Part shown: piece after piece, positions 102-31,837 of the stretch
Position numbering within the stretch: the first letter of the stretch is position 1
How the letters are laid out: every line of letters begins with the position of its first letter
From: Rhodococcus sp. WMMA185
GTDB lineage: Bacteria > Actinomycetota > Actinomycetes > Mycobacteriales > Mycobacteriaceae
NCBI RefSeq assembly: GCF_001767395.1
Contig: NZ_CP017014.1
Location: 3,232,501-3,296,500, forward strand
Length of the DNA: 64,000 nucleotides
Reading direction: 5' to 3'
Translations under genes and position numbers: made by a program
Notes under the pieces: generated by a model
Told to the model about the DNA's origin: nothing
The model's input: only the letters and a program-made list of their open reading frames with translations
Databases searched by the model: none

Positions 102-179
102 TCGTCATCCGTCCTCGACGCCGTGCCGTACTCGGCCCAGCCACCGTCCGCTCGAAACTGTAGCGAAGCCTATCCTTAT

Positions 180-257: not shown

Positions 258-3200
258 TCATCGAATGTTGCCAGTCCACTGAGCGGCCAGGCTCGACATC
301 TCCGATGCCCAGCAGCGGACCGTCTCGACGTCCAGTACTTCCGAGGAGAACGAGAAGTACGCGTGCACGGGCCCGTCGTCGATCGGTTCGTAGAAACTGA
401 GCGTCAGATCCACATCCGGAACGCCCACCGGGACCGGCATCAGTGCACCCAATGCGTCCAGATGATCGAGCCTCGCCTGTTCGTGGTGTACGAGCATGAC
501 CTGCGGGCGCAGCACGGCCGACCCATCTCCCACAGCGTCCACGACATCCGCGAAGGCCACGTCCTGATTGTCGAGCGCATCGAGATTCGATCTGCGGATA
601 CGCTGCAGCAGCTCTACGGGATCCGGATCGCCGCTCGTATCCGTTCGCAACAGAACGATGTTGAAGAAGCAACCGATCAGCGCGTCGAGTGCTTGCTCGG
701 AGCGACCCGCAACCAGCGATCCGAGCGGAATATCCGTGCCGGCGCCGTGACGGGTCAGCACGGTCGCGAGAGCGGCCTGCAGCACCATGAACAGACTCGT
801 TCCGGTATCCCTAGCGAAAGCATCGATCGAAGAATGCAATTCCGAGTCGATCTCGACAGGTATCAACTGCAGAGTCACTTCTGGGGTCCGGGATCCGGAC
901 CCGCTCGGTGCCGGTAGCTCGAGCCGGGGCGGCATGCCGGCCAATCTCTCCCGCCAGTAGGCGAGCTGGCGGGAATATCGACTGTCCGGATCGTGGGGAT
1001 CGCCGGTCAGCGCCTCATGCCACACGACGTAATCGGGGTACTCGACAGTTAGTGGTTCCCAGTCGGGTTCGTCGCCGCTGGACCGGGAAGCGTACGCGCC
1101 CATCAGATCGCTGAGCAGCGGCACCACCGACCACTCGTCCACCGCAATGTAGTGCATCGCCAGGAGCAGCACCTGCGTGCCGTCCGCAGCGCTGACGAGA
1201 TGAGCCCGTAGCGGTGCCTGTTCGGTGAGGTCCATTGGCTGTTGCGCCAACTCGAAGACCGTCCGGTGTACGTCACCGCCACCGACGTCGACGACTGCGA
1301 GAACAGGGCGAACCGCTTCCCGCGCGACAACGGTATCGCCGAGTTCGGCGTACACAGTGCGCAGTGGTTCGTGCCGGGACGTGACGTCGTCGAGTGCCCG
1401 TGCCAGGATTTCCGGATCAACTGTGCCGCGAATCTGCACCGACAGTGCGTGACTGGCCTGCGCCTCGGCGCCCCCCGCGCGGAATTGCCTCCAGAACCGC
1501 CGTTGCGGTCCGGACAGCGGTAGCGTCTCCGGCCTTGGGCCTGCGGGCACCAGTACCGGCCGGCCGGATCTGGCCGCGCCGGCGACGATCTCGGAGAGTC
1601 CGGCCACAGTGGAACTGTCGAACACGTCCCTGATGGTCAGGTCGACTCCGAACCGCTTGCGAAGGGTTCCAACCAACCTCATCGACGCCATGGAGTTGCC
1701 GCCGAGGTCGAAGAAGTTGTCGTGGATGCCCACTGAGGGCAGGTGCAGGATCTCGGCGAATACCTCCGCTATCTCTTTCTGCTGCGGGGTCTGCGCGGCG
1801 ACGACCCCGGTCAGCGCCGACCAGTCCGGTCGCGGAAGCGCCTTGCGGTCGAGTTTGCCGTTGGGGGTCAGCGGCAGATCGCCGTCGAGAACGACGACCA
1901 CGGTCGGCACCATGTAGTCCGGCAGGCGGTCGGCGGCATGGGCACGCAGTGCCTGTGGATCGACGCGCTCGGCCCGGCCATCGGACACGGTCACGTAGCC
2001 GACGAGGCGGACGATGTCGCCCTCCCGATCCGCCAGCACCGCCGACTGTTTCACATCGGCGTGGCTACCGAGGGCCGCGATGATCTCGCCGAGTTCGATA
2101 CGGAATCCGCGAATCTTCACCTGATCATCGACACGTCCGAGGAAGTCGATATTTCCGTCCGCCCGCCAGCGCGCACGGTCGCCGGTCCGGTACATCCGAG
2201 ATCCAGCCTCACCGAACGGGTTCGATACGAATCGTCCGGAGGTGAGGGCAGACTTCCCCAGGTATCCGCGGGCGAGACCGCGTCCGGCGATGTACAACTC
2301 GCCCGCCACCCCGGGCGGAACCGGATTCAGCAGATCGTCGAGTACGTACGCCTGCTCGTTGGGATCAGGAATTCCGATCGGTACTGCCGAGTCCCATCCA
2401 GGCCGGGCCTGCCACAGGGTGTTGTTGACGGTGGCTTCGGTGAGACCATATGCCGCCAACAGATTCAGCCGCTCGGCCCAGCGGCCGATCAGTTCGGGCG
2501 GCACGGTCTCCGTACCCACCAGCACCGTGCACCCTGCCGGGACATCGCATCCGGGCGGTAGCGCCGCCATCAACGACGGCGGAATGATCGCGTGCGTCAC
2601 AGCGTGTTCGGCCATGAAGTCGGTGAGCTCCGGGCCCGCCACACGGGACTCGTCCGGCACGATCACCAAACGCGAACCCGTGCACAGCGCCATGGACAGC
2701 TCGAACACGGCGACGTCGAATCCGATCGAGGCGAACTGCATCACCACCGAGCCGCGAACCAGTCGCATTCTCTCCTCGGCCGTGGCGACGAGGCTGGGAA
2801 TTCCGTCGTGAGTAAGGACCGCGCCCTTGGGTTTGCCGGTCGAACCCGATGTGTAGATGACGTACGCGGCATGGTCCAGGCCGCTCGGCGGGTGTGGCAG
2901 GTCCACACCATCGGCGCCGTCGAGTTCGGCGATGATCGACGGATCGTCGATGACAACGCGGTCGAGTGTGTTTGCCTTGGCGATGTAGGTGCTGTCCCGC
3001 ACCGTTGTCACCAACACCTGTGCGGCCGAATCGGCAAGCATGTAGGAGATGCGCTCTGCCGGGTGGTTCAGATCGAGCGGCAGGTACGCCGCTCCGAGCC
3101 TGAGCACACCGACGACTGTCGCCACCATCTCGATCGACCGCGGTAGCGCCAATCCCACCACGCTTTCGACGGATACACCGCGCCGATGCAAGAGTGCGGC

Positions 3201-6200
3201 AATGCGGTCGGCTCGGTCGCTCAGTTCTGCATATGTCACCTGACCGTGCGAGTCGATCACAGCGACAGCCTCCGGGGTCGACGCGACGTGGCGCATGAAC
3301 GCCTCGAAGAACGTCTCCTCCGGTACCTCCTGCCCTGTGTCGTTGAACCCGTGCAACACCAGATCACGCTCGTCGTCGAGAAAGACGTCGAGATCGCCGA
3401 TCACCACACCGGAATCGGACGCCAGTGCATCGAGAACCGCGATCTGACGGCGCGCGATCTTCGCCGCGGTATCGCGATCGAAGAGGTCGGAGCCGTACTC
3501 GAGGCGCAATTCCACGCGCTCGGCGTCGAGGTACTCGGTGTAGTTGAACACCAGATCGAACTTGGCCGTGCGCTCTTCGAACGAGACCGGGACGGCCCCT
3601 TCCGCAACCACCGAGTCGGACGCCCGGGTGTGGTAGCCGACCATCACCTGGAACAGCGGGTTCCGGGCCGGAGTGCGTGCGGGATTCACCCTCTCCACAA
3701 CGGTTTCGAAGGGGACGTCCGCATTCGCGAAGGCCGCCAGGTCTGTGTCGCGGACCCGAGCCAGCAGTTCGTCGAAGGTGGGGTTGCCCGACACGTCGGT
3801 CCGCAACACTACGGTGTTGACGAAGAAGCCGATCAGCTCGTCCAGTCCCTGCTCGCTGCGCCCGGCGACCGGCGCGCCGAGCGGCAGGTCATCGCCCGCA
3901 CCAAGCCGGTGCAGCAACGCTGCGGACGCCGCGTGCAGAACCATGAACATGGTGGCTCCCGACGCCCGTGCGAGAGACCGTAGGGCCCGTGTGGTCGCGG
4001 CGTCGAGTGTCATCTCGATTGCTCCGCCTGTGAAACTCGGCCAGGCGGGGCGAGTGTGATCGGTGGGGAGCGCCAACTCCTCCGGGACCGAATCGAGTGT
4101 CTTTGCCCAGTAGCCGAGTTGACCGCTCATGACACTCGAGGGGTCGTCCGGGTCACCGAGCAGATCTCGTTGCCACAGCGTGTAGTCGGCATACTGCACG
4201 CCGAGCGGTTCCCACGATGGTGCCGCTCCCTGCGCCCGGGCGGTATACGCGGTCATCAGATCGCGCAGGAATGGGCGGTCCGACCACTCGTCGGTGGTGA
4301 TGTGGTGCAGCACTATCGCCAGCACCTGTTCCCCGGCGACCGTGATCAGCCTTGCCCGGATCGGGATCTCCGCGCCCAAATCGAACGGGCGGCCCACGGT
4401 CTCGGCGACCAATTGGGCGAGTTCGGCTTCCGTGGCGTCACACTCGGTCACCTCGGGGCGAACGTCGTTCAGGATCAACTGAATCGGTTCGCCGTCGTGC
4501 TCTCCGAAGACCGTCCGCAAAGACTCGTGCCGCCTCACCACGTCGGTCAGTGCCTGCTGGAACAACCCCGGGTCGAGTGCTGCTTGCAGCCGCAGGACGA
4601 TCGGGAAGTTGTATGCAGCAGATGCCCCGTCGATCTGCTGCAACAGCCAGAGTCGTTGTTGCGCAGCAGAGAGCGGCAGATTCTCGGGCCTCGGCCGTGC
4701 TACCAGGGCGGGCCGTTTCGAGCTCGTGTCGTTGCCGATACGGGAAGCCAGCTCCGCGACAGTGGGTGCCTCGAACAGATCGCGCATGGTCAAGTCCGCC
4801 TCGAGCGCACTCCGTGCACGACTGATCAGCCTCGTCGCCAGCAGCGAATGACCACCGAGATCGAAGAAGTTGTCGTCGATGCCGGGAGTCGGAACCCCGA
4901 GAACCTCTCCGAACAGACCGGCCAGGATGCGTTCGGTGTCGTTGCTCGGCTGCGTCCGTTCGCCACCGCGGGCACCCAGAACCTCATCCGCGGACGGCAG
5001 CGCCTTGACGTCGAGTTTGCCGTTCATCGTCATCGGCAAGCTGTCGACCTCGATGATCGCGGCCGGCACCATGTAGTCGGGCAGCAGCCCACGCACCGCC
5101 GGACGGTACTGGTCGGCACCCTGCGAGCCGCGAGGGCGTGCGGACACCACGTACCCGACCAGACGGGTGAATCCACCGGGGCCCGAATCGACCACGACAG
5201 TCGCCTGGCGCACAGTGTCCAACGATTCGAGCGCCGAGGAGATCTCGCCCAACTCCACCCGATGACCACGAATCTTCACCTGATCGTCGGTGCGGCCGAG
5301 GTAGTCGAGGTTTCCGTCCATGCGGCGACGCACCAGATCGCCCGTCCGATACATACGTACGGACTCCTCGAACGGGTTCGCCACGAAACGCTCCGCCGTC
5401 AGCGCGAATCGGCCCAGATAGCCTCGAGCCAACCCGACCCCGGAGATGTACAACTCGCCGGTGACACCGTCCGGAACCGGACGAAGCCAAGGATCGAGCA
5501 CGTAGGCTGACGTGTTCCAGATCGGCGCGCCGATCGTCGACGTGGCACTGTCCGCGGTACTCGCGCCGAGAGTGTTGATCGTGTACTCGGTCGGGCCGTA
5601 CAGGTTGTATCCAAAGGTCCCGTCGGTGTCGCGCAACCGGTTCCACACCGAATCCGACACTGCCTCGCCGCCGAGCAGCACCAGTGGTGGCCGGTGGCGT
5701 CCTGGGCTGTCTTCGAGTAGCCCCTCCTCGAAGAGATGCTGCGCGTACGTCGGCGTCACATTGACGACGTCGATCTCGCGGGCGTCGCAGTAGGCGACGA
5801 GGGCCTCGGCATCGCGTCGGAGGTTCTCGTCGCATATGTGTACCTCATGGCCCTCCACCAGCCACAACAACTCTTCCCACGACATGTCGAATGCAAACGA
5901 CACGGTGTGCGCGATTCGCAGTCGCCGTCCACCCGTCGCTCTCACCGCGGGGTCGAAGATCGCCTCGCGGTGATTGAGCTGCATATTGGTCAGACCGCGG
6001 TACCCGGTCACGACACCCTTCGGCTTCCCCGTCGATCCCGAGGTGTAGATGACGTATGCCGGGTGCTCGAGTCGCCTGGGATTTCCGGGCGCGAAACCGC
6101 GGAGTTCGGCATCGGACAGTGGCGCGGACGGGACTGCCGTGAAGTCCACTTCGTCGAGGACGAGCACGTCCACCGCGGCCGCGGCCAGGGTCTGCGCGAG

Positions 6201-9200
6201 CGACGACGTGGTCACCAGTGTGGTCGGGCCCGCGTCCTCGAGCATTCCGATCAAGCGCTCTGCCGGGTGATCGAGTTCGAGCGGCAGGTATGCCGAACCG
6301 GTGCGCAGCACAGCGAACAGCGCCACCACCATCTCCACCGACCGAGGCAGGGCAAGAGCCACGATCTGTTCGGGGCCTGCCCCGTGACCGAGCAGGAGCC
6401 TGGCCATCCGATTCACGTCGGCGTCGAGTTCGGCGTAGCTCACCGTCCGTTCACCGAAGACCAGGGCAGTCTCGTCGGGCTGAACGCGCGCGATATCCCC
6501 GAGCAACTCTGCAACCGTCGCGTCGGGTAGCGGCCTCGGCTCGCTGGGCACCGGCTCGGCGGCTCCGACGATTCCGGCGACCGCGCCCGTGACGTCGGTG
6601 GACCATTGCTCGAGAACGGCCACGAACCGGGACAGCATGCGTTCGACGCGATAGTCCGCGACCGTCTCGGGGTGGAACTCGAACTTCACTTTCACACTCG
6701 CCCCCGGCGTCACGACGACCGTGACCGGGTAGTGGGTGTGATCGATGCTGTCGCCGCCACTGATGTCGTGCGCATCGTTGAGGGCCGACACCTGCTTCTC
6801 GTCCACGAAGTTCTGCAGCACGTACAACACGTCGAACAGCCGGCGATGCTCGGTGACCCGCTGAATGGATGCCAACCCGAGATAGTCGTAGGGGCTCAGC
6901 GACAACCGGTCGGACTGTGTCCGGCGCAGTAGGTCGACCACACTCTCGTTCGGACGCAACGTCATCCGGACGGGAACCGTATTGAGGAACATCCCAGCCA
7001 CCCCGTCCAGCCCCGGAACCTCCGGCGGGCGACCGGCGACGGTGGTGCCGAAAACCAGGTCCTGACGCCCAGTCTCGACCCCGAGAACGACGGCCAGAGC
7101 CGCGCTGAGCACCGCATTGAGCGTGACACCCGCACCTCTGGCGCTCGCGCGCAGTCGCTCGCTCAGTTCCTCAGGCAGCACCGCATCGTACTGCCGGGGC
7201 GGCAGCGGATCCCCTGGGGAACTCACCGCGAGCTGTGTCGGTTCCTCGAGTCCGCGCAGCGCCTCGGCCCACGCGGCCTGCGCGGCGCCGGTGTCCCGCG
7301 CGGCGAGCCAGGTCAGATAGTCCTCGAATGTACCTTCGGGGGAACCGAACCCGGAGTCGTCGCCACCCGATTCGTAGAGAGCCAGCAACTGGCTCACCAC
7401 GATCGAATTGGACCATCCGTCCCACAGCAGGAACTGGCGGTTGACCACCAGGCGATCGTGCGTGTCCGTCAGACGCAGAACCATGACCCGCCACAGCGGG
7501 GGTGAGGTGAGATCGAACGGCGTCAGCCGATCCTGTGCCGCCAACTCGGCAGCGCGGGCGTTTCGATCGCCCTCGTCGAGTTCACGAAGATCGAACTCGA
7601 CGATCGGAACGTCTAGGCCGGAAGCGACGAACTGTACAGGCGCGCTGAGTCCTTCGCTGACGAAACCCGCTCTCAGGGTGGGATTGCGGCGCTGGAGAGT
7701 TCGCAGAGCGCCGGCGAGGCGTTCGATGTCGAGGCGATGCCCGAAGTCCAGGGTGAACTGCGCCGTGTAGATGTCGGACCCGGCGTCGAACCCGGCCTGA
7801 AAGTACAGACCTTCCTGTAGCGGCGACAGCGGCAGTATCGTGTCGACCCCGGTAGGACTTGCCGCCACTATCCGATCGACCTCTCGCTGCTTCAGCGTCA
7901 CGAGCGGGAGATCGGACGGGGTCAGGATCGCCGGTCCGTCGTGTGCCGCCGCGGCGTCGGCGAGATCGCGCAGCGCCCTCACCCAGCCGTCGCTGATCGC
8001 GATCGCATCGTCCTCGCTGAGGTCGTCCTCCGACCAGGCGAAGACCGCCTGCAGTTCGGCGCCATGCTCGGCTTCCTCGCACAGCGCATTGATCACGAGC
8101 CGATAGGGTCCACCCAAGTCTCCGTCGGGATCGGTTGCCAGGGAATCGGATTCGGCAGCATACGTCCAGACACCGGTCTCCGCCTGCGGCAGGCGGCCGA
8201 GGTAGTTGAACAGCACCTGCGACTCCGACCTTGCCTCGAGCACTCTCGAGGTACTGGCGTTGAGGTACCGGAGCATTCCGTAGCCGATTCCGCCGTCGGG
8301 CGCGCCGCGCAACCGTTCCTTGACGTCCTTCAGCGTCTCTAGTGCATCTCCCCGGCTGCCCAACCGGACCGGGGTGACATTGGTGATCCAGCCGACGGTG
8401 CGGGATAGATCCACGCCCCGGGCCAACTCCTCGCGTCCGTGCCGCTCGAGGTCCACCAGCAGGTCCGGACCGTGCTCGCGGCCGGCGAACCACCGGTCGA
8501 CGGCCAGAGCCAGCCCCGCGAGCAGCACATCGGTGACATCGGCGCCGACGACTCCTGGAACCCTGGTCAACAGGGTCTTCGTGAGCTCGGCGTCCACACG
8601 TACGGTGCGCCGTGCTCCGCTGCTGACAACCGCATGACCGGTGGCACCGGGTACCAGTTCCGCACCGGGTTCGGTGACCTGCAGCCAGTGATCGAGCTCC
8701 CCGAGCCGGGCGGGTTCGTGTGCCTGCTCGGTGAGTACGCGCGCGAATCCGCGCAGCGACGTACCCACCGGGTCGAGTGCCGCGGGTTGACCGCTGTCGG
8801 TGGCCACCCACGCCATGGCCAGGTCCTCGACCAAGATCCGCCACGACACCGCGTCGACCACGAGGTGGTGAGCGACGAGCAAGAGCCTCCCGAGGTCATC
8901 CGGACCGGCGTCGAACCACACCGCAGAGAGCATGACTCCGCTGTCGGGGTCGAGGCGATCGGTGGCCGCATCGGATTCCGCCGACACCGATTCACGCAGT
9001 GCAACGTCATCGAGACCGGTGACATCGATGCGTCGCAGAGCCAGTTCCGCTGATTCGGTGATCTCGAGCGACCACACCCCCGGCGCGTGCCGAGTAAGCC
9101 GCTGCCGCAGGCCGTCGTGGTGGTCGAGTACCCCGTGCAGGGCGCGCCCGAGCACCTCGGTGCTGGTGCCGGCCGGAGTGTTCAGGAGTACCGCCTGATT

Positions 9201-12200
9201 GAAACGGTTCTTTCCGCCGCTCCACTCCGAGAGCCGGTGCACAACCGGAAGCGGCCACACGACGCCGGTCCCGGAGTCGTCCACTGCGGCGAGCGGGGCA
9301 ACGCCGGACCCGCTGACCGCTCCTGCCAGTACAGACGGCGTTCGATGCTCGAAAATCTGCCGCGGAGTGATCGTGATCCCCTCGCGGCGAGCAAGATTCA
9401 CCAGGCGAATGGCGAGGATACTGTCGCCGCCGAGCGCGAAGAAGTCATCATTCTGGCCGACTGCTTCAAGGCCGAGGATCTGGGCATAGTGGCCGGCCAG
9501 CACCGCTGCCACACCACTGTGGTCAACCGTTGCCACGTCAATCTGAGTGGTAGTGACATGCGCCGAGAAGTCTGGCGCAGGCAGGGCTTTGCGATCCAGC
9601 TTGCCGCTCGGGCTGACCGGGAACTCCGCCAGCGTCACGAACGCGACCGGCACCATGAACTCCGGCAGGGTGGCAGTCAGGCGCTGTCGGACGTCGTCCG
9701 GATCGGCGTCACCGCCCAGATACCCGACCAGTTGTTGCAGGCCCGGCCGATCCGAGCGCACGATTGCGGCCGCCTGCCGCACACCGGGGCACGCGGCCAT
9801 CTGAGCTTCGATCTCGCCCAGTTCGATGCGGAAGCCTCGCAGCTTCACCTGATCGTCTGCCCGACCGACGTACTCGACAGCACCCCCCGCGCCGATTCGA
9901 GCGATGTCACCGGTCCGGTACATCCGAGATCCCTTAGCAGAGAACGGATCAGCCACGAAACGCTCGGCGCTGAGTGCGGGCCTGCCCAAATACCCCCTGG
10001 CCAGTTGCGCCCCGGACAGATACAGCTCACCCGAAGTACCATCCGGCACCGGTTGCAGGTAGCGGTCGAGCACGTACAGACCGGTGTTGGAGGTCGGCAA
10101 GCCGATCGGCACAGACGGCGCCGAGGCTTCGATTCCCTGGACGGACGCCGCGAAGCTGACCTCCACCGACGCCTCGGTAGGACCGTAGAGGTTGTCGAGT
10201 TCCACTCCGGGCAGGACTTCGGCAACTCGCCGGGCCGACGTCACCGGCAGCGCTTCCCCACTGCAGGAGATGATGCGCAATCCGGTGCATCGCGCTGCGG
10301 CAGGCTCGGCGAGGAACGCCTCGAGCATCGACGGGACGAACCGCACCCGAGTGATCGACCGCTGGATGATGACATCCGCGAGGTATGCCGGATCCTTGTG
10401 ACCGTCCGGCCTCGCCAGGACGAGTGTCGCGCCGGCCAGCAGCGGCCCGAAGAACTCCGGGACCGACACATCGAAACTCGAGGGAGTCTTCTGCAACACA
10501 TTGTCCGAGGCCGTCATCGGCCGGAAGCGTTGCTCCCAGAGCAATCGGTTGACGATTGCGGCATGGGGTACCACAACCCCCTTGGGGCGACCGGTCGACC
10601 CCGAGGTGTAGATCACGTAAGCCGGGTGCTGCGGAGCGAGCGCGACACCGGACAGCGGCTCGGACGAGTAGCCCACGGCATCGGAAACCCGGACCTGTGG
10701 AACGTCGACACCGGCGAATGGTGCAGCCGAGTCGGTCAGAAGGCACACCGGTTCGGCGTCATCGAGCATGTACGACAATCGGTCTACGGGGTAGCTGGTA
10801 TCGAGTGGCACGTATGCGCCGCCCGCCTTCCCCACCGCCAGGAGAGCGACCATCAGGTCCAGCGAACGGGGCAACGCCACCGCCACCTTCGACTCCGGTG
10901 CCACCCCTCGCTCAACGAGCAACCGGGCCAGACGGTTGGCCCGCTCATGCAACTGCGCATACGTAAGTTGCTCGTCCTCGCTCACAACCGCCACGGCGTC
11001 GGGTGTCCGCTTCGCCTGCTCCTCGAGGAGGGCCGTCACCGTCGTCCGAGGGAACTCCACCCGTACTTCGCGCAGTGCCGTGTCGATCGACTCACGCGAG
11101 GCCAGCGCGACTCGTGACACACTCTGATCCATGTCGCGGGTCAACTCGGTGAGATATGCGACGGTCGACTCCGCGAACCGGATCGCGGTCGTCTCGTCGA
11201 TGCGCGCCGCGTCGTAATCGAGGTCGAGCGTGAGCTCGCCGCCGGGAACGACGATCAAGGTCATGGGATACGGCGGGCGTTCGTCGAATCGAATGTCCGT
11301 CACCTGCACCGCACCGGAGGGGTCGGTGAGGGCGCTTTCCCCGAGCGGATAGTTCTCGAAGACGACCAGCGTCTCGAAGAGGTTGTGCAGTCCGGCTTCC
11401 CGGCGCAGGTCGGACAGACCGAGATACTGGTGGTCGAGTAGCGTCGACTGCTCGTGCTGCCACCGGGCGAGGGTATCCACCACCGTGTCGGCGGGCCGGT
11501 ATCGCAGCCGGGTCGGAATGGTGTTGATGAACAAGCCCACCATGGTCGCGATACCGGGTAGATCGCCGCCGCGACCCGATACCGTCGACCCGAACACCAC
11601 GTCTTCTACGCCCGTCAGCCTGCCCAGAACCAGTCCCCACGTTCCGTGGACCAGCGTGCTGAGGGTCAGTCCGCGAGCGCGACCCATTGTGGTGAGTGCG
11701 GCAGTCTCTTCCGGCGGAAGCTGCATCCGTATCTTGCGGATCCCGGATTGGCCCTGCAGCAGGGGATTCGGAAGCTCCACGGGTTCCGGTAGATCGGCGA
11801 GCACTTCCCGCCACACGGCAAGCGATGCCGCACGGTCCCGGGACCCGAGCCACTCGAGGTAGCTGCGGTACGGCGTGGGTGCCGGCAGCGTCGGCGGTGT
11901 TGCCTCGGCGCTGTAGAGCGCCATCAGTTCACGCAGCATGACCGGTACCGACCAGCCGTCCGCGACGATGTGGTGGATCGACTGCAGCAGAAGGAACTTC
12001 GGTGCCGCGACTCCGTCCGCATCCCTGTCCGCGATCCTTGCAAGCGTGTAGCGCACCAGGGGCGCGCGTCCGAGGTCGAAACCGATGGCCCGGTCGGCGG
12101 CCAGCAACTCATCCACTCGCTGTGCCGGTTCCGCTTCTGCGGTCAGGTCCACCACTTCCATCGGCACCCGCACGCCGTCCCGGACAACCTGCACGATCCG

Positions 12201-15200
12201 GCCGTCCGACACCGCCTGAACGCCGACGCGGAGAGCGGCGTGCCGGTCGACGACTGTCTGAAGTCCACGGTGCAACGCTGCCGCATCGACGGGTCCGGTC
12301 AGTTCGATCACCTGCTGCACCACATAGGGATCGGAATTGGCGTCCTCGAAAGCCGATTGGAAGTAGATCCCTTCCTGTAACGGCGTCAACGGCAGGACTT
12401 CCGCCAGTCTTCCCGTTGACGCCGTACCCTGTAGCGCCTCGACGTCCGCTCGAGTCAGCGAGACCAGCAGGAAGTCCGAGGGCGTATGCCCGCCGTGGCG
12501 CTGCGCTCCGGCCAGCACCCGGAGCGCCGCCGTCCACTCCTCGGCAAGCGCCTCGACGCTCGCGCGCGTGAGAACCCCTGGCGCCCAGGTCATCGTGCTG
12601 GTCAGCGCCGGGCCGTCAGGGCCCTCCTCAGCGATCACGTCGAAGGTCAGTACGTGGCCGAGCGGCATTCGCGGGTCGTCGGCGCCGCTCATGGCACGAG
12701 GAAGCCAGTCGACGTCCGCCGCCGACGGCACCCGGCCGAGGTAGTTGAACAGCACCTGCGGGATCGGTGCCCGCTCGAGTTCCGGTCTCGGCGTGCCGAG
12801 GTAGCGCAGAGCTCCGTAGCCGAACCCTGACCCCGGAATCCGGCGAAGCTGGTCCTTGACCGCCTTCAGAGCACGGGCCATGTCCGCTTCGCGGTCCTCC
12901 TCTGCTGTCGTCGTCCCCGGGTCGATCGCCACCGGGTAGACGGTGGTGAACCATCCGACGGTTCGGGAGAGGTCGACCATTCCTCCGTCGTCGCGACGAA
13001 GCGCGTCTTCCTCGCGTCCATGACCTTCGAGATCGAGAAGTACTGCGCCCGAATCCGTGCCGGCTCCGCACGCGGCACGCCACTTCCGCAACGCCACGGC
13101 AAGCCCAGTGAGCAGCACATCGCCCACCTGGGCGTGAAACGCCGCCGGTACGGATGTGAGAAGAGGGTGTGTGAACTCCGGTGGCAATGCCACCGTGAGG
13201 GATTGCGCATCTCCGGCCTTGTCGAGCAGCGGATCCAATGCCCGCGAACCGATGTTCGGATCGGGAGTAGCGATCGCTTCGGACCAGAAGGGCAACTCGT
13301 GGTCGAACGCGCCCTCCCTCACATGCTCGTTCAGCACTTCCGACCACCGTCGCAGCGACATCCCGACCTTCGCTAGTTCGGGAGTGCCACCCGCCATGAC
13401 CGACATGGCCGCGCTCGCAAGGTCTTCGAGGATGATGCGCCAGGACACCCCGTCTACCACCGCATGGTGGGCGACCAGCAACATCCGCCCGGGACCGTCC
13501 TGGTCGAAAAACAGGACCGCCTGCACCATTGCCCCAGCGTCGGGATCGAGGCGACCGACAGCCGCACGGGTTTCCGAATCGAGTTGCGCCTGACTGCCGT
13601 CGAACTGGACGACGCGAAGCACGTCGTGGGCTGCAGCCGGATCCCACTCCGGCACCGACAGCGTCCAGCGCACACCGCGAACGAGTCTGGCTCTCAGTGC
13701 GTCGTGTCTTTCGAGGACCGCGGCCAGGGCGGTACGGGCGGTCTCCGCGGCCAGATCGGCAGGAGTCTGCACGAGCACCGACTGGTGGAACGCCGCGACG
13801 TCGGCGCCCCGCTCGCCGGTACGCGCCAGGATCGGGGTGGTTCGCACCTCGCCAACCGCGACATCATCCGAGTCGACCTCGACTCGAACGCGGCCGTCCT
13901 GTGTCCGGGCGAGCGCCTCGGCCGTGCGGAGCTGGAAGACCTCTCGGGGACTGATCGAGAACCCTTCTTGTCGAGCACGGTTCACCAATTGGATCGCGAC
14001 GATGCTGTCACCGCCGAGGGCGAAGAAATCGTCCGTCACGCCCACCGTCTCCACTCCGAGGACGCCGGCAATGAGCGCACACAGCCTTTCCTCGACCGCG
14101 GTCCGCGGCGCCAAGTCCTCGCTCGCCGCAGCGAGGTCGGGTTCAGGTAGTGCCCTGCGATCCAACTTCCCATTGGGTGTGAGCGGGAAGCTGTCGAGGA
14201 CGACGAACGCTGACGGCACCATGTACTCGGGCAACTTCGACGACGCCCACACCCTCAGATCGGCGATATCCAGGTCAATGCCCTGTTCCGCGACCACGTA
14301 TGCAGCAAGATACTTCGTGCCGGAAGGAATCTGGCGAACGACGACGGCGCTGTGCCGGACGCTCGGATGCGACACCAGCCCCGCCTCGACGTCCTCGAGT
14401 TCCAGGCGCATGCCCCGGATCTTGACCTGGTTGTCGGCGCGGCCGAGGAAGTCCAGCGATCCGTCCGCGGTCCATCGTGCTCGGTCGCCCGTCCGGTACA
14501 GTCGCGACCCGTCGTCCGCGAAGGGATTGGCAACGAATCGGGCAGCCGTAAGCCCGGGCGCACTCACATACCCGCGCCCGAGGAGGAATCCGCCCGCATA
14601 CAGTTCACCACCGACCCCGATCGGCACTGGGTTCAAGTGCTCGTCCAGCACGTATAGCTGGGTATTCGGATTCGGCCGGCCGATCGAGGTCGCGATCCGT
14701 GCGGCATCGGATCGGTAGATCACATGCGACACACCGATAGTCGTCTCCGCCGGGCCGTAGCCGTGATACAGCGTGGTCGCGAGCTGGGACCTGAACCTCT
14801 CGAACAGTTCCGGGGTGAGAACCTCGCCGCCACACCAAACGTGTTTCAGCTCGGACAGTAGATCCGTTCCGCGGGACAGATCGAGCAAAACGTCGAGCAT
14901 CGAGGACACCAGGTAGACGAATGTCACCGACTCGCGTGCGATCAGGTCGAGGAGATACTGCGGATCACGTTCCCCACCTGGCTCGGCCACCACCAATCGC
15001 CCCCCCGACACGAGGGGCAGCAATATCTCGTTCACGGAAATATCGAACGAAAGCGGCGCCTTGAACAGCGACGCGTCCCCCGGGCCGAAGCGCAGGATCT
15101 CGTCGCGCTGCCACAGCAGTCGCGCGCACACGGCTTCGTGCCGGATCATCGCGCCCTTGGGACGGCCCGTCGAACCCGAGGTGAAGATGACGTAGGCCAG

Positions 15201-17081
15201 TGAAGAACCCTGAACAGCCTCGACAGGAAGCTCCGGGGGCTGCGCGGCATGCGCCCAATCCTCGAGATCTACCGGCACTGCCCACTCCCCAGCGTCAGCT
15301 ACGCCGCCGGGACCGGTGAGAACGAGCGAAGCCCCGGCATCCGCGAGCACCGACCTGCGGCGATCCTGGGGCCAGGACGGATCGAGCGGTACGAACGCAC
15401 CCCCGGCGCACATGACGGCCAGCAGCCCGATCACCATCTCGGCTGATCGCGGCAGACCCACCGCCACAACCTCTTCCGACTCCACTCCTCGGGCCCTCAA
15501 GTGATGCGCGAGCTGCGCAACACGCTCTCCCAGCTCTCGGTAGGTCAGGCGCACCGCCCCCGAGACGAGCGCCTCGGCATCCGGGGTGCTGGCCACCTGC
15601 GCCTCGAACAAAGCGGAGACTGTCGTCGATTCCTGCTGAGCAGCAGTGTTGTTGAACTCCTCGAGCAACTGCCTGCGCTCATCGAGCGTCATCGGATCGA
15701 GCGACGCAATGCTCAGCGAAGGTTCGGCGACGAACTGACCCAAGAAGTGCGAGAGCCTGCGACGGTGCTCGTCGAGTTCAGCATGAAGACCGGCAGGCGC
15801 CCGCAGGTCGATCTCGATGGGCTCGGAATCCTGCCCGCCGCGAATCGAGAAGTCGAGGTCGCGCACCACTCCGGTGGCTGAACTGCGCACCCGTGTGGGA
15901 AAGCCACCGAGCGTCAGCGCGTGCTCGAACATCATGGAATTGATACCGGGACCGAATATCTGACGATCCGGATCGATCGACCGAAGGTCGCGGGCGAGAT
16001 CCTCGCCGCGGTAGCGCCCATGGCGCAGAATCGAAATGAGGGTGGTGTCGATCCGCTTCGCCAACTCGCCTACTGTCATGTCCGGATCGACCTGAATACG
16101 TAGCGGCAGGATCGTCGAGCACATTCCAGGAATGCGGCGCATGTCGCGGCCCACCCGGGCGGTCATCGGCAACGACAGCATGAGGTCGCGTACACCCGTC
16201 ATACGGTGGATGTATGCCACGACGGCAGCCAGCGGCAAACGAGTCCGCCTGATACCGGCGTCCGCGGCGTAGGCGTAGAGCTGGTCGGCGTCGTCACCGT
16301 CAATCTCGACCAAGGCGGAGATCGGGATAGCGGAACCGTCCACGACGTGCGGGAGCAGCCTCGGCGGCTCGGGCGCATCGATCACCTGCCCGATCCAGAA
16401 GTCACGGTCAGCGGCGAAGCGCTTCGATGCGCGGTACTCGCGATCGGATGTAACGAGAGCGTCGAGAGGCCAAGGGACAGGCTCGACCTCGAAGTCAGGA
16501 CTGTCGTATCGCTCGACTACTTCGGCAACCAGCAAGGCGACCCCGTAGCCGTCCATGACGGCGTGGTGATAACGCTGGTACCACACCAGCGATTCGTCGC
16601 CGGTACGAAGCAGGGCTTGCCGGAACATGGGGGCGTCTGCACCGAGGTCGATTACGGTCCGCATGTCGCGATCCATCCATGCGCGAGCGCTCGCGTCGGG
16701 ATTCTCTTCACCGCGCAGGTCGACTACTTCCAGCGTCCAATCCTGGGGATCGCGGGGAACCTGTCTCAGGTCCTTGCCCTCGCCCCTTTCGAAGCGCACG
16801 TGTACGGCTTCGGCCCGCTCCACGGTCCTGCGGATCGAGGTGATCAGACGATCGATATCGATCGGATCGTTGACTTCGCCGGCCATCGACACGTTGTAGA
16901 CGGGACTCTCCGGGTGCAATTGTTGCCCGACCCACACCTCTGTCTGAGCGGCAGTCAGTGGGAGCACTGTGCGCATCGAAGAGGGCAGCGTGGAGGACGA
17001 CTGAGGGCGGGCAGCCGCCGCGTGGTCCGGAGACACCGCATGGTCCGGAGACATGATGATCCCATCGTCCGTCGAGAGCAC
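258..17081 (-). CDS. Tetramodular nonribosomal peptide synthetase for a hydroxamate siderophore
   Basis: 5607 residues without frameshift. Approximate domain order: C1 40-470, A1 490-1000, T1 (Ser ~1025), E1 1080-1500, C2 1555-1990, A2 2010-2510, T2 (~2553), E2 2610-3020, C3 3080-3500, A3 3530-4030, T3 (~4078), C4 4135-4560, A4 4600-5080, T4 (~5130), C5 5180-5600. There is no thioesterase. My alignment to GrsA gives the A-domain pockets DINYWGGIGK (A1), DVPRSSLVEK (A2), DMENLGLINK (A3) and DVFILGAVNK (A4). A1 and A3 match codes I recall for (formyl-)hydroxyornithine; A2 is loosely serine-like; A4 is unassigned. Two epimerization domains predict D residues at positions 1 and 2. The layout equals that of erythrochelin-type synthetases, where the terminal C domain is thought to close a diketopiperazine. 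C3 has QFLLWDG in place of HHxxxDG, C4 has HHITTDE and C5 has HYIAVDE. The start is GTG at 17081; an in-frame ATG at 17054 (MSPDHAVSPD) is a strong alternative because the IdeR box ends 30 bp from the GTG. No MbtH-like gene is visible nearby. Confidence 0.93.
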   Translation of the reverse strand: MLSTDDGIIMSPDHAVSPDHAAAARPQSSSTLPSSMRTVLPLTAAQTEVWVGQQLHPESPVYNVSMAGEVNDPIDIDRLITSIRRTVERAEAVHVRFERGEGKDLRQVPRDPQDWTLEVVDLRGEENPDASARAWMDRDMRTVIDLGADAPMFRQALLRTGDESLVWYQRYHHAVMDGYGVALLVAEVVERYDSPDFEVEPVPWPLDALVTSDREYRASKRFAADRDFWIGQVIDAPEPPRLLPHVVDGSAIPISALVEIDGDDADQLYAYAADAGIRRTRLPLAAVVAYIHRMTGVRDLMLSLPMTARVGRDMRRIPGMCSTILPLRIQVDPDMTVGELAKRIDTTLISILRHGRYRGEDLARDLRSIDPDRQIFGPGINSMMFEHALTLGGFPTRVRSSATGVVRDLDFSIRGGQDSEPIEIDLRAPAGLHAELDEHRRRLSHFLGQFVAEPSLSIASLDPMTLDERRQLLEEFNNTAAQQESTTVSALFEAQVASTPDAEALVSGAVRLTYRELGERVAQLAHHLRARGVESEEVVAVGLPRSAEMVIGLLAVMCAGGAFVPLDPSWPQDRRRSVLADAGASLVLTGPGGVADAGEWAVPVDLEDWAHAAQPPELPVEAVQGSSLAYVIFTSGSTGRPKGAMIRHEAVCARLLWQRDEILRFGPGDASLFKAPLSFDISVNEILLPLVSGGRLVVAEPGGERDPQYLLDLIARESVTFVYLVSSMLDVLLDLSRGTDLLSELKHVWCGGEVLTPELFERFRSQLATTLYHGYGPAETTIGVSHVIYRSDAARIATSIGRPNPNTQLYVLDEHLNPVPIGVGGELYAGGFLLGRGYVSAPGLTAARFVANPFADDGSRLYRTGDRARWTADGSLDFLGRADNQVKIRGMRLELEDVEAGLVSHPSVRHSAVVVRQIPSGTKYLAAYVVAEQGIDLDIADLRVWASSKLPEYMVPSAFVVLDSFPLTPNGKLDRRALPEPDLAAASEDLAPRTAVEERLCALIAGVLGVETVGVTDDFFALGGDSIVAIQLVNRARQEGFSISPREVFQLRTAEALARTQDGRVRVEVDSDDVAVGEVRTTPILARTGERGADVAAFHQSVLVQTPADLAAETARTALAAVLERHDALRARLVRGVRWTLSVPEWDPAAAHDVLRVVQFDGSQAQLDSETRAAVGRLDPDAGAMVQAVLFFDQDGPGRMLLVAHHAVVDGVSWRIILEDLASAAMSVMAGGTPELAKVGMSLRRWSEVLNEHVREGAFDHELPFWSEAIATPDPNIGSRALDPLLDKAGDAQSLTVALPPEFTHPLLTSVPAAFHAQVGDVLLTGLAVALRKWRAACGAGTDSGAVLLDLEGHGREEDALRRDDGGMVDLSRTVGWFTTVYPVAIDPGTTTAEEDREADMARALKAVKDQLRRIPGSGFGYGALRYLGTPRPELERAPIPQVLFNYLGRVPSAADVDWLPRAMSGADDPRMPLGHVLTFDVIAEEGPDGPALTSTMTWAPGVLTRASVEALAEEWTAALRVLAGAQRHGGHTPSDFLLVSLTRADVEALQGTASTGRLAEVLPLTPLQEGIYFQSAFEDANSDPYVVQQVIELTGPVDAAALHRGLQTVVDRHAALRVGVQAVSDGRIVQVVRDGVRVPMEVVDLTAEAEPAQRVDELLAADRAIGFDLGRAPLVRYTLARIADRDADGVAAPKFLLLQSIHHIVADGWSVPVMLRELMALYSAEATPPTLPAPTPYRSYLEWLGSRDRAASLAVWREVLADLPEPVELPNPLLQGQSGIRKIRMQLPPEETAALTTMGRARGLTLSTLVHGTWGLVLGRLTGVEDVVFGSTVSGRGGDLPGIATMVGLFINTIPTRLRYRPADTVVDTLARWQHEQSTLLDHQYLGLSDLRREAGLHNLFETLVVFENYPLGESALTDPSGAVQVTDIRFDERPPYPMTLIVVPGGELTLDLDYDAARIDETTAIRFAESTVAYLTELTRDMDQSVSRVALASRESIDTALREVRVEFPRTTVTALLEEQAKRTPDAVAVVSEDEQLTYAQLHERANRLARLLVERGVAPESKVAVALPRSLDLMVALLAVGKAGGAYVPLDTSYPVDRLSYMLDDAEPVCLLTDSAAPFAGVDVPQVRVSDAVGYSSEPLSGVALAPQHPAYVIYTSGSTGRPKGVVVPHAAIVNRLLWEQRFRPMTASDNVLQKTPSSFDVSVPEFFGPLLAGATLVLARPDGHKDPAYLADVIIQRSITRVRFVPSMLEAFLAEPAAARCTGLRIISCSGEALPVTSARRVAEVLPGVELDNLYGPTEASVEVSFAASVQGIEASAPSVPIGLPTSNTGLYVLDRYLQPVPDGTSGELYLSGAQLARGYLGRPALSAERFVADPFSAKGSRMYRTGDIARIGAGGAVEYVGRADDQVKLRGFRIELGEIEAQMAACPGVRQAAAIVRSDRPGLQQLVGYLGGDADPDDVRQRLTATLPEFMVPVAFVTLAEFPVSPSGKLDRKALPAPDFSAHVTTTQIDVATVDHSGVAAVLAGHYAQILGLEAVGQNDDFFALGGDSILAIRLVNLARREGITITPRQIFEHRTPSVLAGAVSGSGVAPLAAVDDSGTGVVWPLPVVHRLSEWSGGKNRFNQAVLLNTPAGTSTEVLGRALHGVLDHHDGLRQRLTRHAPGVWSLEITESAELALRRIDVTGLDDVALRESVSAESDAATDRLDPDSGVMLSAVWFDAGPDDLGRLLLVAHHLVVDAVSWRILVEDLAMAWVATDSGQPAALDPVGTSLRGFARVLTEQAHEPARLGELDHWLQVTEPGAELVPGATGHAVVSSGARRTVRVDAELTKTLLTRVPGVVGADVTDVLLAGLALAVDRWFAGREHGPDLLVDLERHGREELARGVDLSRTVGWITNVTPVRLGSRGDALETLKDVKERLRGAPDGGIGYGMLRYLNASTSRVLEARSESQVLFNYLGRLPQAETGVWTYAAESDSLATDPDGDLGGPYRLVINALCEEAEHGAELQAVFAWSEDDLSEDDAIAISDGWVRALRDLADAAAAHDGPAILTPSDLPLVTLKQREVDRIVAASPTGVDTILPLSPLQEGLYFQAGFDAGSDIYTAQFTLDFGHRLDIERLAGALRTLQRRNPTLRAGFVSEGLSAPVQFVASGLDVPIVEFDLRELDEGDRNARAAELAAQDRLTPFDLTSPPLWRVMVLRLTDTHDRLVVNRQFLLWDGWSNSIVVSQLLALYESGGDDSGFGSPEGTFEDYLTWLAARDTGAAQAAWAEALRGLEEPTQLAVSSPGDPLPPRQYDAVLPEELSERLRASARGAGVTLNAVLSAALAVVLGVETGRQDLVFGTTVAGRPPEVPGLDGVAGMFLNTVPVRMTLRPNESVVDLLRRTQSDRLSLSPYDYLGLASIQRVTEHRRLFDVLYVLQNFVDEKQVSALNDAHDISGGDSIDHTHYPVTVVVTPGASVKVKFEFHPETVADYRVERMLSRFVAVLEQWSTDVTGAVAGIVGAAEPVPSEPRPLPDATVAELLGDIARVQPDETALVFGERTVSYAELDADVNRMARLLLGHGAGPEQIVALALPRSVEMVVALFAVLRTGSAYLPLELDHPAERLIGMLEDAGPTTLVTTSSLAQTLAAAAVDVLVLDEVDFTAVPSAPLSDAELRGFAPGNPRRLEHPAYVIYTSGSTGKPKGVVTGYRGLTNMQLNHREAIFDPAVRATGGRRLRIAHTVSFAFDMSWEELLWLVEGHEVHICDENLRRDAEALVAYCDAREIDVVNVTPTYAQHLFEEGLLEDSPGRHRPPLVLLGGEAVSDSVWNRLRDTDGTFGYNLYGPTEYTINTLGASTADSATSTIGAPIWNTSAYVLDPWLRPVPDGVTGELYISGVGLARGYLGRFALTAERFVANPFEESVRMYRTGDLVRRRMDGNLDYLGRTDDQVKIRGHRVELGEISSALESLDTVRQATVVVDSGPGGFTRLVGYVVSARPRGSQGADQYRPAVRGLLPDYMVPAAIIEVDSLPMTMNGKLDVKALPSADEVLGARGGERTQPSNDTERILAGLFGEVLGVPTPGIDDNFFDLGGHSLLATRLISRARSALEADLTMRDLFEAPTVAELASRIGNDTSSKRPALVARPRPENLPLSAAQQRLWLLQQIDGASAAYNFPIVLRLQAALDPGLFQQALTDVVRRHESLRTVFGEHDGEPIQLILNDVRPEVTECDATEAELAQLVAETVGRPFDLGAEIPIRARLITVAGEQVLAIVLHHITTDEWSDRPFLRDLMTAYTARAQGAAPSWEPLGVQYADYTLWQRDLLGDPDDPSSVMSGQLGYWAKTLDSVPEELALPTDHTRPAWPSFTGGAIEMTLDAATTRALRSLARASGATMFMVLHAASAALLHRLGAGDDLPLGAPVAGRSEQGLDELIGFFVNTVVLRTDVSGNPTFDELLARVRDTDLAAFANADVPFETVVERVNPARTPARNPLFQVMVGYHTRASDSVVAEGAVPVSFEERTAKFDLVFNYTEYLDAERVELRLEYGSDLFDRDTAAKIARRQIAVLDALASDSGVVIGDLDVFLDDERDLVLHGFNDTGQEVPEETFFEAFMRHVASTPEAVAVIDSHGQVTYAELSDRADRIAALLHRRGVSVESVVGLALPRSIEMVATVVGVLRLGAAYLPLDLNHPAERISYMLADSAAQVLVTTVRDSTYIAKANTLDRVVIDDPSIIAELDGADGVDLPHPPSGLDHAAYVIYTSGSTGKPKGAVLTHDGIPSLVATAEERMRLVRGSVVMQFASIGFDVAVFELSMALCTGSRLVIVPDESRVAGPELTDFMAEHAVTHAIIPPSLMAALPPGCDVPAGCTVLVGTETVPPELIGRWAERLNLLAAYGLTEATVNNTLWQARPGWDSAVPIGIPDPNEQAYVLDDLLNPVPPGVAGELYIAGRGLARGYLGKSALTSGRFVSNPFGEAGSRMYRTGDRARWRADGNIDFLGRVDDQVKIRGFRIELGEIIAALGSHADVKQSAVLADREGDIVRLVGYVTVSDGRAERVDPQALRAHAADRLPDYMVPTVVVVLDGDLPLTPNGKLDRKALPRPDWSALTGVVAAQTPQQKEIAEVFAEILHLPSVGIHDNFFDLGGNSMASMRLVGTLRKRFGVDLTIRDVFDSSTVAGLSEIVAGAARSGRPVLVPAGPRPETLPLSGPQRRFWRQFRAGGAEAQASHALSVQIRGTVDPEILARALDDVTSRHEPLRTVYAELGDTVVAREAVRPVLAVVDVGGGDVHRTVFELAQQPMDLTEQAPLRAHLVSAADGTQVLLLAMHYIAVDEWSVVPLLSDLMGAYASRSSGDEPDWEPLTVEYPDYVVWHEALTGDPHDPDSRYSRQLAYWRERLAGMPPRLELPAPSGSGSRTPEVTLQLIPVEIDSELHSSIDAFARDTGTSLFMVLQAALATVLTRHGAGTDIPLGSLVAGRSEQALDALIGCFFNIVLLRTDTSGDPDPVELLQRIRRSNLDALDNQDVAFADVVDAVGDGSAVLRPQVMLVHHEQARLDHLDALGALMPVPVGVPDVDLTLSFYEPIDDGPVHAYFSFSSEVLDVETVRCWASEMSSLAAQWTGNIR

Positions 17082-17110
17082 TCGCCGGCGCGACGAGCCC
17101 GCGATGGAGT

Positions 17111-17129
17111 TTAGGTTAGGCTACCCACT
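17111..17129. promoter_or_regulatory. IdeR/DtxR iron box in front of the NRPS
   Basis: TTAGGTTAGGCTACCCACT matches 15 of 19 positions of the IdeR consensus, with the first 13 perfect. It lies in the 98-bp gap between the hydrolase stop and the NRPS start, 30 bp upstream of the GTG and 57 bp upstream of the alternative ATG. Iron-loaded IdeR would be expected to repress the NRPS here. Confidence 0.75.
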
Positions 17130-17179
17130 CACAACAACCCGACTTCCACAGGACGAGCGGGTGTCACTCGAACCCCAAG

Positions 17180-17983
17180 TCATCCGGCGAGGAACTCGAG
17201 CAGCACCTTGTTCACCACATCGGGACGCTCGAGGTAGCCGTAATGGCCCACGTCGGAGATCTCGTAGTACCGGGCGGACGGTATTACTTCGGCCACCTCA
17301 CGGGAGAGATACGGCGGAATCATCCGGTCATCGGCGAACCCGATGGACAGGCACGGCACGGTAATCGCCCGGTATGCCTCGCGGCGATCGAAGCTGCGAT
17401 CCATCCTCATCTGGGCGCGCACGCCTTCCGACATCTTGCCCCCACTGAACTCGAAGAGGTCGAGCCAGTCGCGGGCGGTGTGCGGATCGACCAGCGACGC
17501 CGGAGACAGATTCATCACCGCAGTGACCGCAGCCTGATACTTGGCCGGCAGCTCGACGCCGTTGTCGTACAGGGCACTCTCACCCTCGCTCAGCGTCTTC
17601 TGGAAATAGTCCATCCGGGCATGCCCGGCAAGAAACGCCGCCTTGCGCACCAAGTCGGGGCGTGACAACGCGAGTTCCTGAGCGACGCGAGCGCCCATCG
17701 ACGTGCCGACGACACGGACCGCTCCACCCCCGAGGTGCTCGATCAACCCCGCGGTGTCGGAGACCATGTCGTCCATGGTGATCCCGTCGACGCTCTCCCC
17801 GGACGGGGCGATGCCGCGGTTGTCGAACGTGCAGACGCTGTAGCCCGCATCGATCAACGCCGGCGTCTGATGCAGGTCCCACACGCGGCCCGGACTACCG
17901 GTTCCCATGATGAGCACCACAAGATCTCCGGAACCCTTGACCTGGTAATTCAAGGGAATTCCGTTGATCGTAGCGATCGTCAT
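17180..17983 (-). CDS. Alpha/beta hydrolase of the siderophore locus
   Basis: 267 residues, a complete alpha/beta-hydrolase fold protein. The nucleophile elbow GTSMGA places Ser95, FADDR supplies Asp218 or Asp219, and VGHYGYLERPD supplies His247. The oxyanion region is LIMGTGSPGRVWD. It lies immediately upstream of the NRPS on the same strand (98-bp gap containing the IdeR box) and diverges from the formyltransferase gene. Because the NRPS has no built-in thioesterase, a role in product release, editing or hydrolysis of the ferri-siderophore is possible; the sequence does not decide between these. The fold assignment is firm, the substrate is not known. The ATG start is preceded by a GGAAGGAAGC-type purine-rich site. 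Confidence 0.85.
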   Translation of the reverse strand: MTIATINGIPLNYQVKGSGDLVVLIMGTGSPGRVWDLHQTPALIDAGYSVCTFDNRGIAPSGESVDGITMDDMVSDTAGLIEHLGGGAVRVVGTSMGARVAQELALSRPDLVRKAAFLAGHARMDYFQKTLSEGESALYDNGVELPAKYQAAVTAVMNLSPASLVDPHTARDWLDLFEFSGGKMSEGVRAQMRMDRSFDRREAYRAITVPCLSIGFADDRMIPPYLSREVAEVIPSARYYEISDVGHYGYLERPDVVNKVLLEFLAG

Positions 17984-18014
17984 GTCTGCTTCCTTCCAAG
18001 TGACGGTTCACCAA

Positions 18015-18033
18015 TCAAGGTTGGATAGCCTAA
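18015..18033. promoter_or_regulatory. IdeR-like box between hydrolase and formyltransferase
   Basis: TCAAGGTTGGATAGCCTAA agrees with the IdeR consensus at 13 of 19 positions, and the right half is best (AGCCTAA). It sits in the divergent gap, 32 bp from the hydrolase start and 60 bp from the formyltransferase start, so it could control both directions. It is weaker than the box in front of the NRPS. Confidence 0.5.
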
Positions 18034-18093
18034 GCTGGCTGCGCTGCCGCTCGTGTGCGGCACTGACCGACAAGCTCGTCCAGGAGGACCGCG

Positions 18094-19029
18094 TTGAGAG
18101 TCGCCACACTCGGATATCAAACCTGGGGTCACCGTACCCTGCAGGCCCTTCTCGAGTCGGAACATGAGGTCGTACTCGCGATTACGCATCCTCCGAGCGA
18201 TCATGCCTACGAGCAGATGTGGGCCGATTCGGTCGCCGACCTCGCGACGGATCACGGGGTTCCGGTGCACATCGCCACCAAGCCGGACGAAGACTTCAAG
18301 GCAGCACTGAAGCGGGCCGACCCCGACATCGTCGTCGCCAACAACTGGCGTACATGGCTGCCAAGGGACGTCTTCGATGCCCCGCGCTACGGCACCCTCA
18401 ACATCCACGACTCGCTGTTGCCCAAGTACACGGGATTCTCTCCGCTGATCTGGGCACTGATCAACGGCGAAGAAGAGGTGGGCCTCACCGCGCACCTGAT
18501 GGACGAGGAACTCGACGCCGGTGACATCGTCTTGCAGCGGTCGACACCCGTCGGGCCCACGGACACCGTCACCGATCTGTTCCACCGCACGGTCGACATG
18601 ATCGGCCCAATCACCCTCGACGCGCTCGATCTCATCGCGTCCGGTCGCACGGACTGGACACCACAGGACCGGTCGCAGGCTACGTTCTTCCACAAGCGGG
18701 CACCCGAAGACAGCCACATCGACTGGACGTGGCCCGCCGACGCCATCGAGCGTCTCGTCCGCGCACAGTCCGATCCGTACCCCAACGCGTTCACCCACTA
18801 CAAGGGCCAGCGAATTCGGGTCTTGAAAGCCGCCGTGTCCAATGGAAATTACGGCGGAACCCCCGGGCGTGTCTTCATCCGGGAAGGTGACGGCATGGTC
18901 ATCGTCGCCGGCCCCGACGCCCGCACCGGCCGGGGCAAGGGGCTGAAGATTCAACGCGTCCGCCTCGACGACGGCACCGAACTCGCGGGAACCGACTTCT
19001 TCCCCCACGGCGGGGGTTACTGCAGGTAG
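18094..19029 (+). CDS. N5-hydroxyornithine formyltransferase (methionyl-tRNA formyltransferase family)
   Basis: 311 residues in the N10-formyltetrahydrofolate-dependent formyltransferase family. The catalytic triad is visible: Asn103 and His105 in TLNIHDSLLPKYTG and Asp144 in LDAGDIV, followed by a C-terminal OB-like segment. The family includes methionyl-tRNA formyltransferase, but a siderophore locus with an ornithine hydroxylase and hydroxyornithine-type A domains argues for formylation of N5-hydroxyornithine, as shown for rhodochelin and coelichelin systems. The start is TTG at 18094, decided by a perfect AGGAGG at 18082-18087 six bases upstream. It diverges from the hydrolase and converges with the ABC transporter genes. 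A housekeeping fmt gene elsewhere would support the specialised role. Confidence 0.85.
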   Translation: MRVATLGYQTWGHRTLQALLESEHEVVLAITHPPSDHAYEQMWADSVADLATDHGVPVHIATKPDEDFKAALKRADPDIVVANNWRTWLPRDVFDAPRYGTLNIHDSLLPKYTGFSPLIWALINGEEEVGLTAHLMDEELDAGDIVLQRSTPVGPTDTVTDLFHRTVDMIGPITLDALDLIASGRTDWTPQDRSQATFFHKRAPEDSHIDWTWPADAIERLVRAQSDPYPNAFTHYKGQRIRVLKAAVSNGNYGGTPGRVFIREGDGMVIVAGPDARTGRGKGLKIQRVRLDDGTELAGTDFFPHGGGYCR

Positions 19030-31835: not shown

Positions 31836-31837
31836 AG

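Follow-up and report, generated by a model that had tools for sequence, protein, structure and literature searches.

The 64-kb window analysed here (64,000 nucleotides of Rhodococcus sp. WMMA185, contig NZ_CP017014.1) opens on a siderophore locus centred on a single 16.8 kb gene for a four-module non-ribosomal peptide synthetase (NRPS), accompanied by genes for a monooxygenase, an alpha/beta hydrolase and a divergent formyltransferase (Table 1). Comparison with related genomes makes us confident that this locus is the rhequichelin (rhb) siderophore cluster, predicted to make a foroxymithine-like peptide, in a Rhodococcus close to R. marinonascens. In our view the cluster itself matters less than one feature inside the NRPS, which is the part worth following: the condensation (C) domain C3, which acts before a hydroxyornithine (hOrn) module, has lost its catalytic His.

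A search with our own profiles returned the domain order C-A-E-C-A-E-C-A-C-A-C (A, adenylation; E, epimerization) for the NRPS, with four thiolation (T) motifs at aa 1022, 2550, 4075 and 5126, and no thioesterase family among the Pfam matches (E up to 1e-5) to both halves of the protein. Thus, the layout proposed in the initial annotation—C-A-T-E, C-A-T-E, C-A-T, C-A-T and a last C without thioesterase, in the erythrochelin/foroxymithine-like module order—is borne out by the profiles, the T motifs and Pfam, and the E domains of modules 1 and 2 agree with its predicted D,D,L,L backbone. The ornithine hydroxylase it had placed beside the NRPS is indeed adjacent, but only the first codons of this gene lie inside the window; its product is the sole full-length member among 11 PF13434-family matches in the genome. 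The formyltransferase triad, too, is in place as claimed (N103, H105 and D144, numbered from the TTG at 18094). From family and context, we infer that the substrates of the two enzymes are ornithine and N5-hydroxyornithine, respectively. The hydrolase is present in all 14 orthologous loci (L035–L048; 13 from the same genus and 1 from the same family) that were fetched beside the formyltransferase, at 77–94% identity.

Table 1. Features of the siderophore locus (window coordinates).
Feature	Position	Strand	Basis or remark
Ornithine N5-monooxygenase gene, first codons	1..101	-	PF13434, E 1.2e-101; genome 3231249-3232601, remainder beyond window
Iron-box-like site before hydroxylase gene	160..178	-	16/19 match
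Four-module NRPS, RhbC orthologue	258..17081	-	5607 aa
C5, last C, HYIAVDE, putative release by diketopiperazine formation	261..1553	-	motif + profile
A4, DVFILGAVNK, acyl-hOrn by comparison	1752..3251	-	code + profile
C4, HHITTDE	3405..4709	-	motif + profile
A3, DMENLGLINK	4917..6455	-	code + profile
C3, QFLLWDG replacing HHxxxDG, catalytic His to Phe	6585..7865	-	motif + profile
E2, HHLVVDA	7941..9311	-	motif + profile
A2, DVPRSSLVEK, drifted Ser-type code	9492..10979	-	code + profile
C2, HHIVADG	11124..12425	-	motif + profile
E1, HHAVVDG	12492..13898	-	motif + profile
A1, DINYWGGIGK	14064..15560	-	code + profile
C1, N-terminal condensation, possible starter, HHAVMDG	15672..16994	-	motif + profile
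Alpha/beta hydrolase, upstream of NRPS	17180..17983	-	Pfam Abhydrolase; kept in orthologues
Divergent hydrolase-formyltransferase promoter gap, weaker iron-box-like site GTTGGATAGCCTAAGCTGG	17984..18093	.	14/19
Formyltransferase, divergent	18094..19029	+	PF00551 + PF02911
ABC half-transporter A, membrane + ATPase	19059..20807	-	Pfam; kept beside related clusters
ABC half-transporter B, membrane + ATPase	20804..22711	-	Pfam; kept beside related clusters

The identification of the cluster comes from a scan of named genomes with two patterns that lie in C3, PLQEGL[YF]F and L[LV]WDGWS[NA], from which we took the best 80 of 527 confirmed stretches (at least 597 pattern matches; L104–L183). Among these 80 is R. 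hoagii (L105), which is R. equi according to the NCBI taxonomy. Its NRPS displays the same 11-domain order with the pocket codes DINYWGGIGK, DVPHASLVEK, DMENLGLINK and DVFILGAVNK, so that A1, A3 and A4 are identical to those of the window, whereas A2 differs at two of nine positions. A hydroxylase gene follows the NRPS (67% identity to the enzyme of the window genome), and upstream, on the same contig, the hydrolase (80%) and the formyltransferase (90%) diverge from a gap of 113 bases; the arrangement formyltransferase / hydrolase-NRPS-hydroxylase is thus common to both. Set against rhbABCDE of R. equi, then, the locus shares the domain order, three codes and the order of the modifying genes, and departs from it in the A2 code and in sequence (C3 71% and C5 58% identical). 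The four codes of R. marinonascens (L114) are exactly those of the window. The second pocket does not read as in R. equi (DVPRSSLVEK versus DVPHASLVEK), but this mismatch is not defining because two-residue differences at this very position are in print: in passages of Ceniceros et al., the rhodochelin and rhequichelin clusters form one family in 11 Rhodococcus strains, with three of the four A domains highly conserved and the second differing at two active-site residues (PMC5550956). The suggestion that the siderophore might be new therefore fails on the match to R. equi in NRPS, codes and gene arrangement. The locus is, judged from its sequence, a cluster of the rhequichelin type whose second pocket is slightly changed, an already known Rhodococcus trait. 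Rhequichelin is reported to be required for growth under iron depletion.

Within the same family lies a different reading, namely that the cluster serves rhodochelin, with the monooxygenase and the formyltransferase supplying another NRPS. We consider it very improbable: rhodochelin does need genes beyond its own cluster and is grouped with rhequichelin, as parts of the same paper state (PMC5550956), but borrowed genes alone would not explain an intact four-module NRPS kept beside its own modifying genes. Rhodochelin shares formyl-hOrn with the predicted product and differs from it in carrying a catecholate. EtcD of erythrochelin has the layout of the window NRPS, including the terminal C domain without thioesterase, and erythrochelin bears acetyl groups where the window has a formyltransferase. 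Foroxymithine has the expected units formyl-hOrn, Ser, hOrn and formyl-hOrn; the window codes agree for residues 1, 3 and 4, and A2 has drifted. Four Prauserella NRPSs, among 34 lines with four modules that are single open frames within 34 of the 80 named loci, combine a Ser code and a formyltransferase with the same A3 and A4 codes.

We read the pocket codes through alignment and motif anchors. DINYWGGIGK at A1 and DMENLGLINK at A3 correspond to the formyl-hOrn and hOrn codes of coelichelin, and they agree with the hydroxyornithine-type pockets that had been called at both positions. Literature searches for these pocket codes found no paper, and one on erythrochelin A domains found nothing. 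The A1 and A3 codes are identical in all 14 orthologues and the A4 code in all 10 whose fetched stretch covers it. The A4 pocket had been set aside as unassignable, a view that the 34 four-module lines overturn. In these, the A domain after DMEN[LM]GLINK reads DVFILGAVNK in 33 cases and DVWILGAVNK in 1, while position 1 holds DINYWGGIGK (18), DVWI[VIL]GAVNK (13) or DVFILGAVNK (2: Actinoplanes, L152, and Catellatospora, L162), with 1 cut off; conversely, in Actinomadura (L158) a position-1-type code is found at position 4. Because the code is swapped between positions 1 and 4, A4 falls in the acyl-hOrn class and can be assigned, by such comparison, as a putative N5-acyl-hOrn loader, the acyl group being formyl given the neighbouring formyltransferase.

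For A2, a survey of 28 genomes of the genus, the window's own included, recovered 19 orthologues with the codes DVLHSSLVDK (9), DVPHNSLVDK (5), DVPHASLVEK (2), DVPRSSLVEK (2) and DVPHNSMVEK (1). Five further matches outside this NRPS all read DVWHFSLVDK, and for this reason a Ser-type domain is the probable ancestor of A2. The earlier call of a possibly Ser-like residue 2 is supported.

Together, these assignments lead to the following scheme. The monooxygenase would N5-hydroxylate ornithine, and the formyltransferase would formylate part of the resulting hOrn. A1 would load formyl-hOrn, to be epimerized by E1; A2 would add a Ser-like residue, to be epimerized by E2; A3 would add free hOrn and A4 a second formyl-hOrn. 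C5 probably frees the chain by diketopiperazine closure between residues 3 and 4, by analogy with erythrochelin. Our best prediction for the product is formyl-hOrn, Ser, hOrn and formyl-hOrn, with a diketopiperazine of hOrn and the second formyl-hOrn. This agrees with the tetrapeptide of formyl-hOrn, Ser, hOrn and acyl-hOrn that Miranda-CasoLuengo (2012) reportedly predicted for rhequichelin. The computed diketopiperazine is C20H35N7O10 (533.245 Da, [M+H]+ 534.252), the linear peptide has 551.255 Da, and the N-acetyl diketopiperazine, with the composition of foroxymithine, has 575.255 Da ([M+H]+ 576.262).

Several observations weigh against parts of this scheme. First, the residues were assigned through specificity codes and comparison, and among the NCBIfam models none matched the formyltransferase or the hydroxylase at cut-off. 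Second, the A2 pocket carries Arg at a position occupied by His in R. equi and in 17 of the 19 genus orthologues, and a residue other than Ser may therefore stand at position 2. If the altered pocket loads something else, the window strain and R. marinonascens, the only two with DVPRSSLVEK, would make a distinct congener and hence a new siderophore. We regard this as unlikely, though the least so of the alternatives, given that A2 keeps D, V, Ser301, Leu322 and the acidic residue 331 of the Ser code, and that the series DVWHVSLVDK (L125), DVSHVSLVDK (L122) and DVPHASLVEK (R. equi) resembles drift. Third, C5 has Tyr for the second His of HHxxxDG (HYIAVDE), as in 30 of the 34 four-module lines, the other 4 having His. 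With the catalytic His gone, the release role of C5 is uncertain, and the departure from the motif leaves diketopiperazine closure resting on the analogy. Fourth, a trans-acting alpha/beta hydrolase has been proposed to release cahuitamycin, with coelichelin cited, in passages of a further paper (PMC4757757). The same cluster could by that route yield a linear tetrapeptide freed by the adjacent hydrolase, which stands directly upstream of the NRPS on the same strand and is present in all 14 orthologous loci and in R. equi, with C5 and its Tyr as a relic. We hold this to be a little less probable still than the altered second residue: all 34 four-module lines end in a C domain, and a relic should decay, whereas C5 and its R. 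equi counterpart share 58% identity. A phylum-wide search with C5 (four candidates scored per genome) was uninformative. On balance, we retain the foroxymithine-like diketopiperazine as the predicted product.

The C domain that joins residue 2 to hOrn, C3, reads QFLLWDG in place of the usual HHxxxDG, with Phe for the second, catalytic His; three alignments to PDB structures place His at the position of this Phe. The domain is nonetheless predicted to be well formed (mean predicted local distance difference test score 89.3); its motif follows a strand (131-139) and precedes a long helix (145-160), the setting in which HHxxxDG sits according to part of a review (PMC11546977). Drift in a single species is rejected as a cause by the presence of QFLLWDG in all 14 orthologues.

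All 80 of the 80 named loci lack the second His in the C domain that precedes DMEN[LM]GLINK, a count biased by the selection of the loci through this very domain; in the other C-A pairs of the same loci, the His is kept in 227 of 229, the remaining 2 being unreadable. We therefore also searched with A3 alone in 394 genomes of the class (six candidates scored per genome), which gave 50 matches in 45 genomes; the 49 outside the window were all retrieved, and 44 of them had the DMEN code. Among these modules, found through the A domain only, the His is missing in 39 of 44 (those within L214–L256 and L262); in one of the 39 (L244), C and A lie in separate frames. The five matches with other codes comprise four that keep the His and one without a C domain in the fetched stretch. 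Loss of the His as a general property of C domains after E domains was rejected, as 0 of the 229 pairs with other codes lose it (the 2 unread included) and a separate sample holds 32 His-keeping C domains that follow an E domain. A relocated His, DxTH in the C-terminal half of C3, was likewise dismissed: it is found in 116 of 120 C domains of hOrn modules, but also in 10 others and in the five His-keepers.

Of those five His-keeping DMEN modules, four look fuscachelin-like (L263–L266) and one heterobactin-like (L267). The former have Gly and Ser codes ahead of hOrn (two Gly codes in three and one in L264), and in the latter Gly and then hOrn follow a DADDVGMVDK (Arg-type) module. Of the 31 His-less domains of hOrn modules in a tree of 130 selected C domains, 30 form one exclusive clade (support 0.993). 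The 31st (L241, ELILLDG) falls outside it, at a node for which no support value is given, and because of this placement the His may have been lost twice before the same A code. The stretch in question (L268/L241, same genome) has ELILLDG before DMENLGLINK and a Cy-like (DMVAADA) module upstream (L282). Elsewhere (L272/L273), an NRPS frame of 7689 aa contains DMENLGLINK twice, each time in a module whose C domain lacks the His (HFLLWDG and HLLLWDG).

The residue that precedes hOrn is attached to the N5-hydroxyl nitrogen in coelichelin, erythrochelin and foroxymithine, which gives a central hydroxamate, whereas in heterobactin hOrn is bound via its alpha-amine; in coelichelin both amines of hOrn are acylated. 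On the basis of these connectivities, we tentatively propose, with the balance tilting somewhat against it, that the C3-type clade has given up the His because it makes no peptide bond and instead acylates hOrn at its N5-hydroxylamine with D-Ser/Thr, so that the domain itself creates the central hydroxamate. With a hydroxylamine as the nucleophile, a general base would not be required. Fuscachelin is a counter-indication to this proposal, and the C domain of the fuscachelin-like exceptions may join the alpha-amine instead. Most of the His-less domains belong to a single clade, so that the association can be counted as only one or two events.

Activity can survive mutation of this His, and an HQxxxDM domain couples a beta-lysine peptide to an aminoglycoside, as passages of the review relate (PMC11546977). 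An analysis of 481 C-domain motifs whose acceptors are known associates modified motifs with small acceptors (PMC8097023); this is, as far as its passages go, a different rule from N5-acylation, and they do not mention hydroxyornithine. A literature search that left most subscription journals outside its reach found no report of a His-less motif for hydroxyornithine modules.

Around these genes, the iron-box-like site before the hydroxylase gene is the only match with at most three mismatches to the DtxR/IdeR consensus (19 positions) in the 64 kb, where 0.01 is expected. Across ten named orthologues, the top site of this gap agrees at 16 positions in four, 15 in four, 14 in one and 11 in one, and in the hydrolase-formyltransferase gap it matches at 14–15 in eight of eight, both without a chance baseline. 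Such sites suggest a candidate iron control, as the two ABC half-transporters suggest a possible role in transport. The ABC pair adjoins the formyltransferase even in distant relatives (L050 and L051; 62–63% and 53–56% identity). The conservation of the whole block in related genomes argues that it is not a chance assembly. Beyond it lie an OtsA-like gene (22896-24443) and a Mce-type operon (25810-34662, reverse strand) with two MlaE permeases and MlaD/Mce4_CUP1 proteins. The 4.44-Mb genome has 67 matches to the Condensation profile, E domains and split matches included, and open frames of about 8200–9000 aa (e.g., C1:1782645-1859971).

For the cluster, the predicted masses (534.252 or 576.262) are of use since rhequichelin, described as similar to erythrochelin and foroxymithine, is not characterized in detail in the passages of Hofmann et al. 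(PMC7824959). For the wider family, the same A code occurs with two states of the C-domain active site across many genera. If the proposal for C3 is true, the signature [HQER][FLVM]xxWDG would predict siderophores with a hydroxamate in the backbone from genomes; it would show how an NRPS picks between the two amines of hOrn and would make this connectivity readable from sequence.

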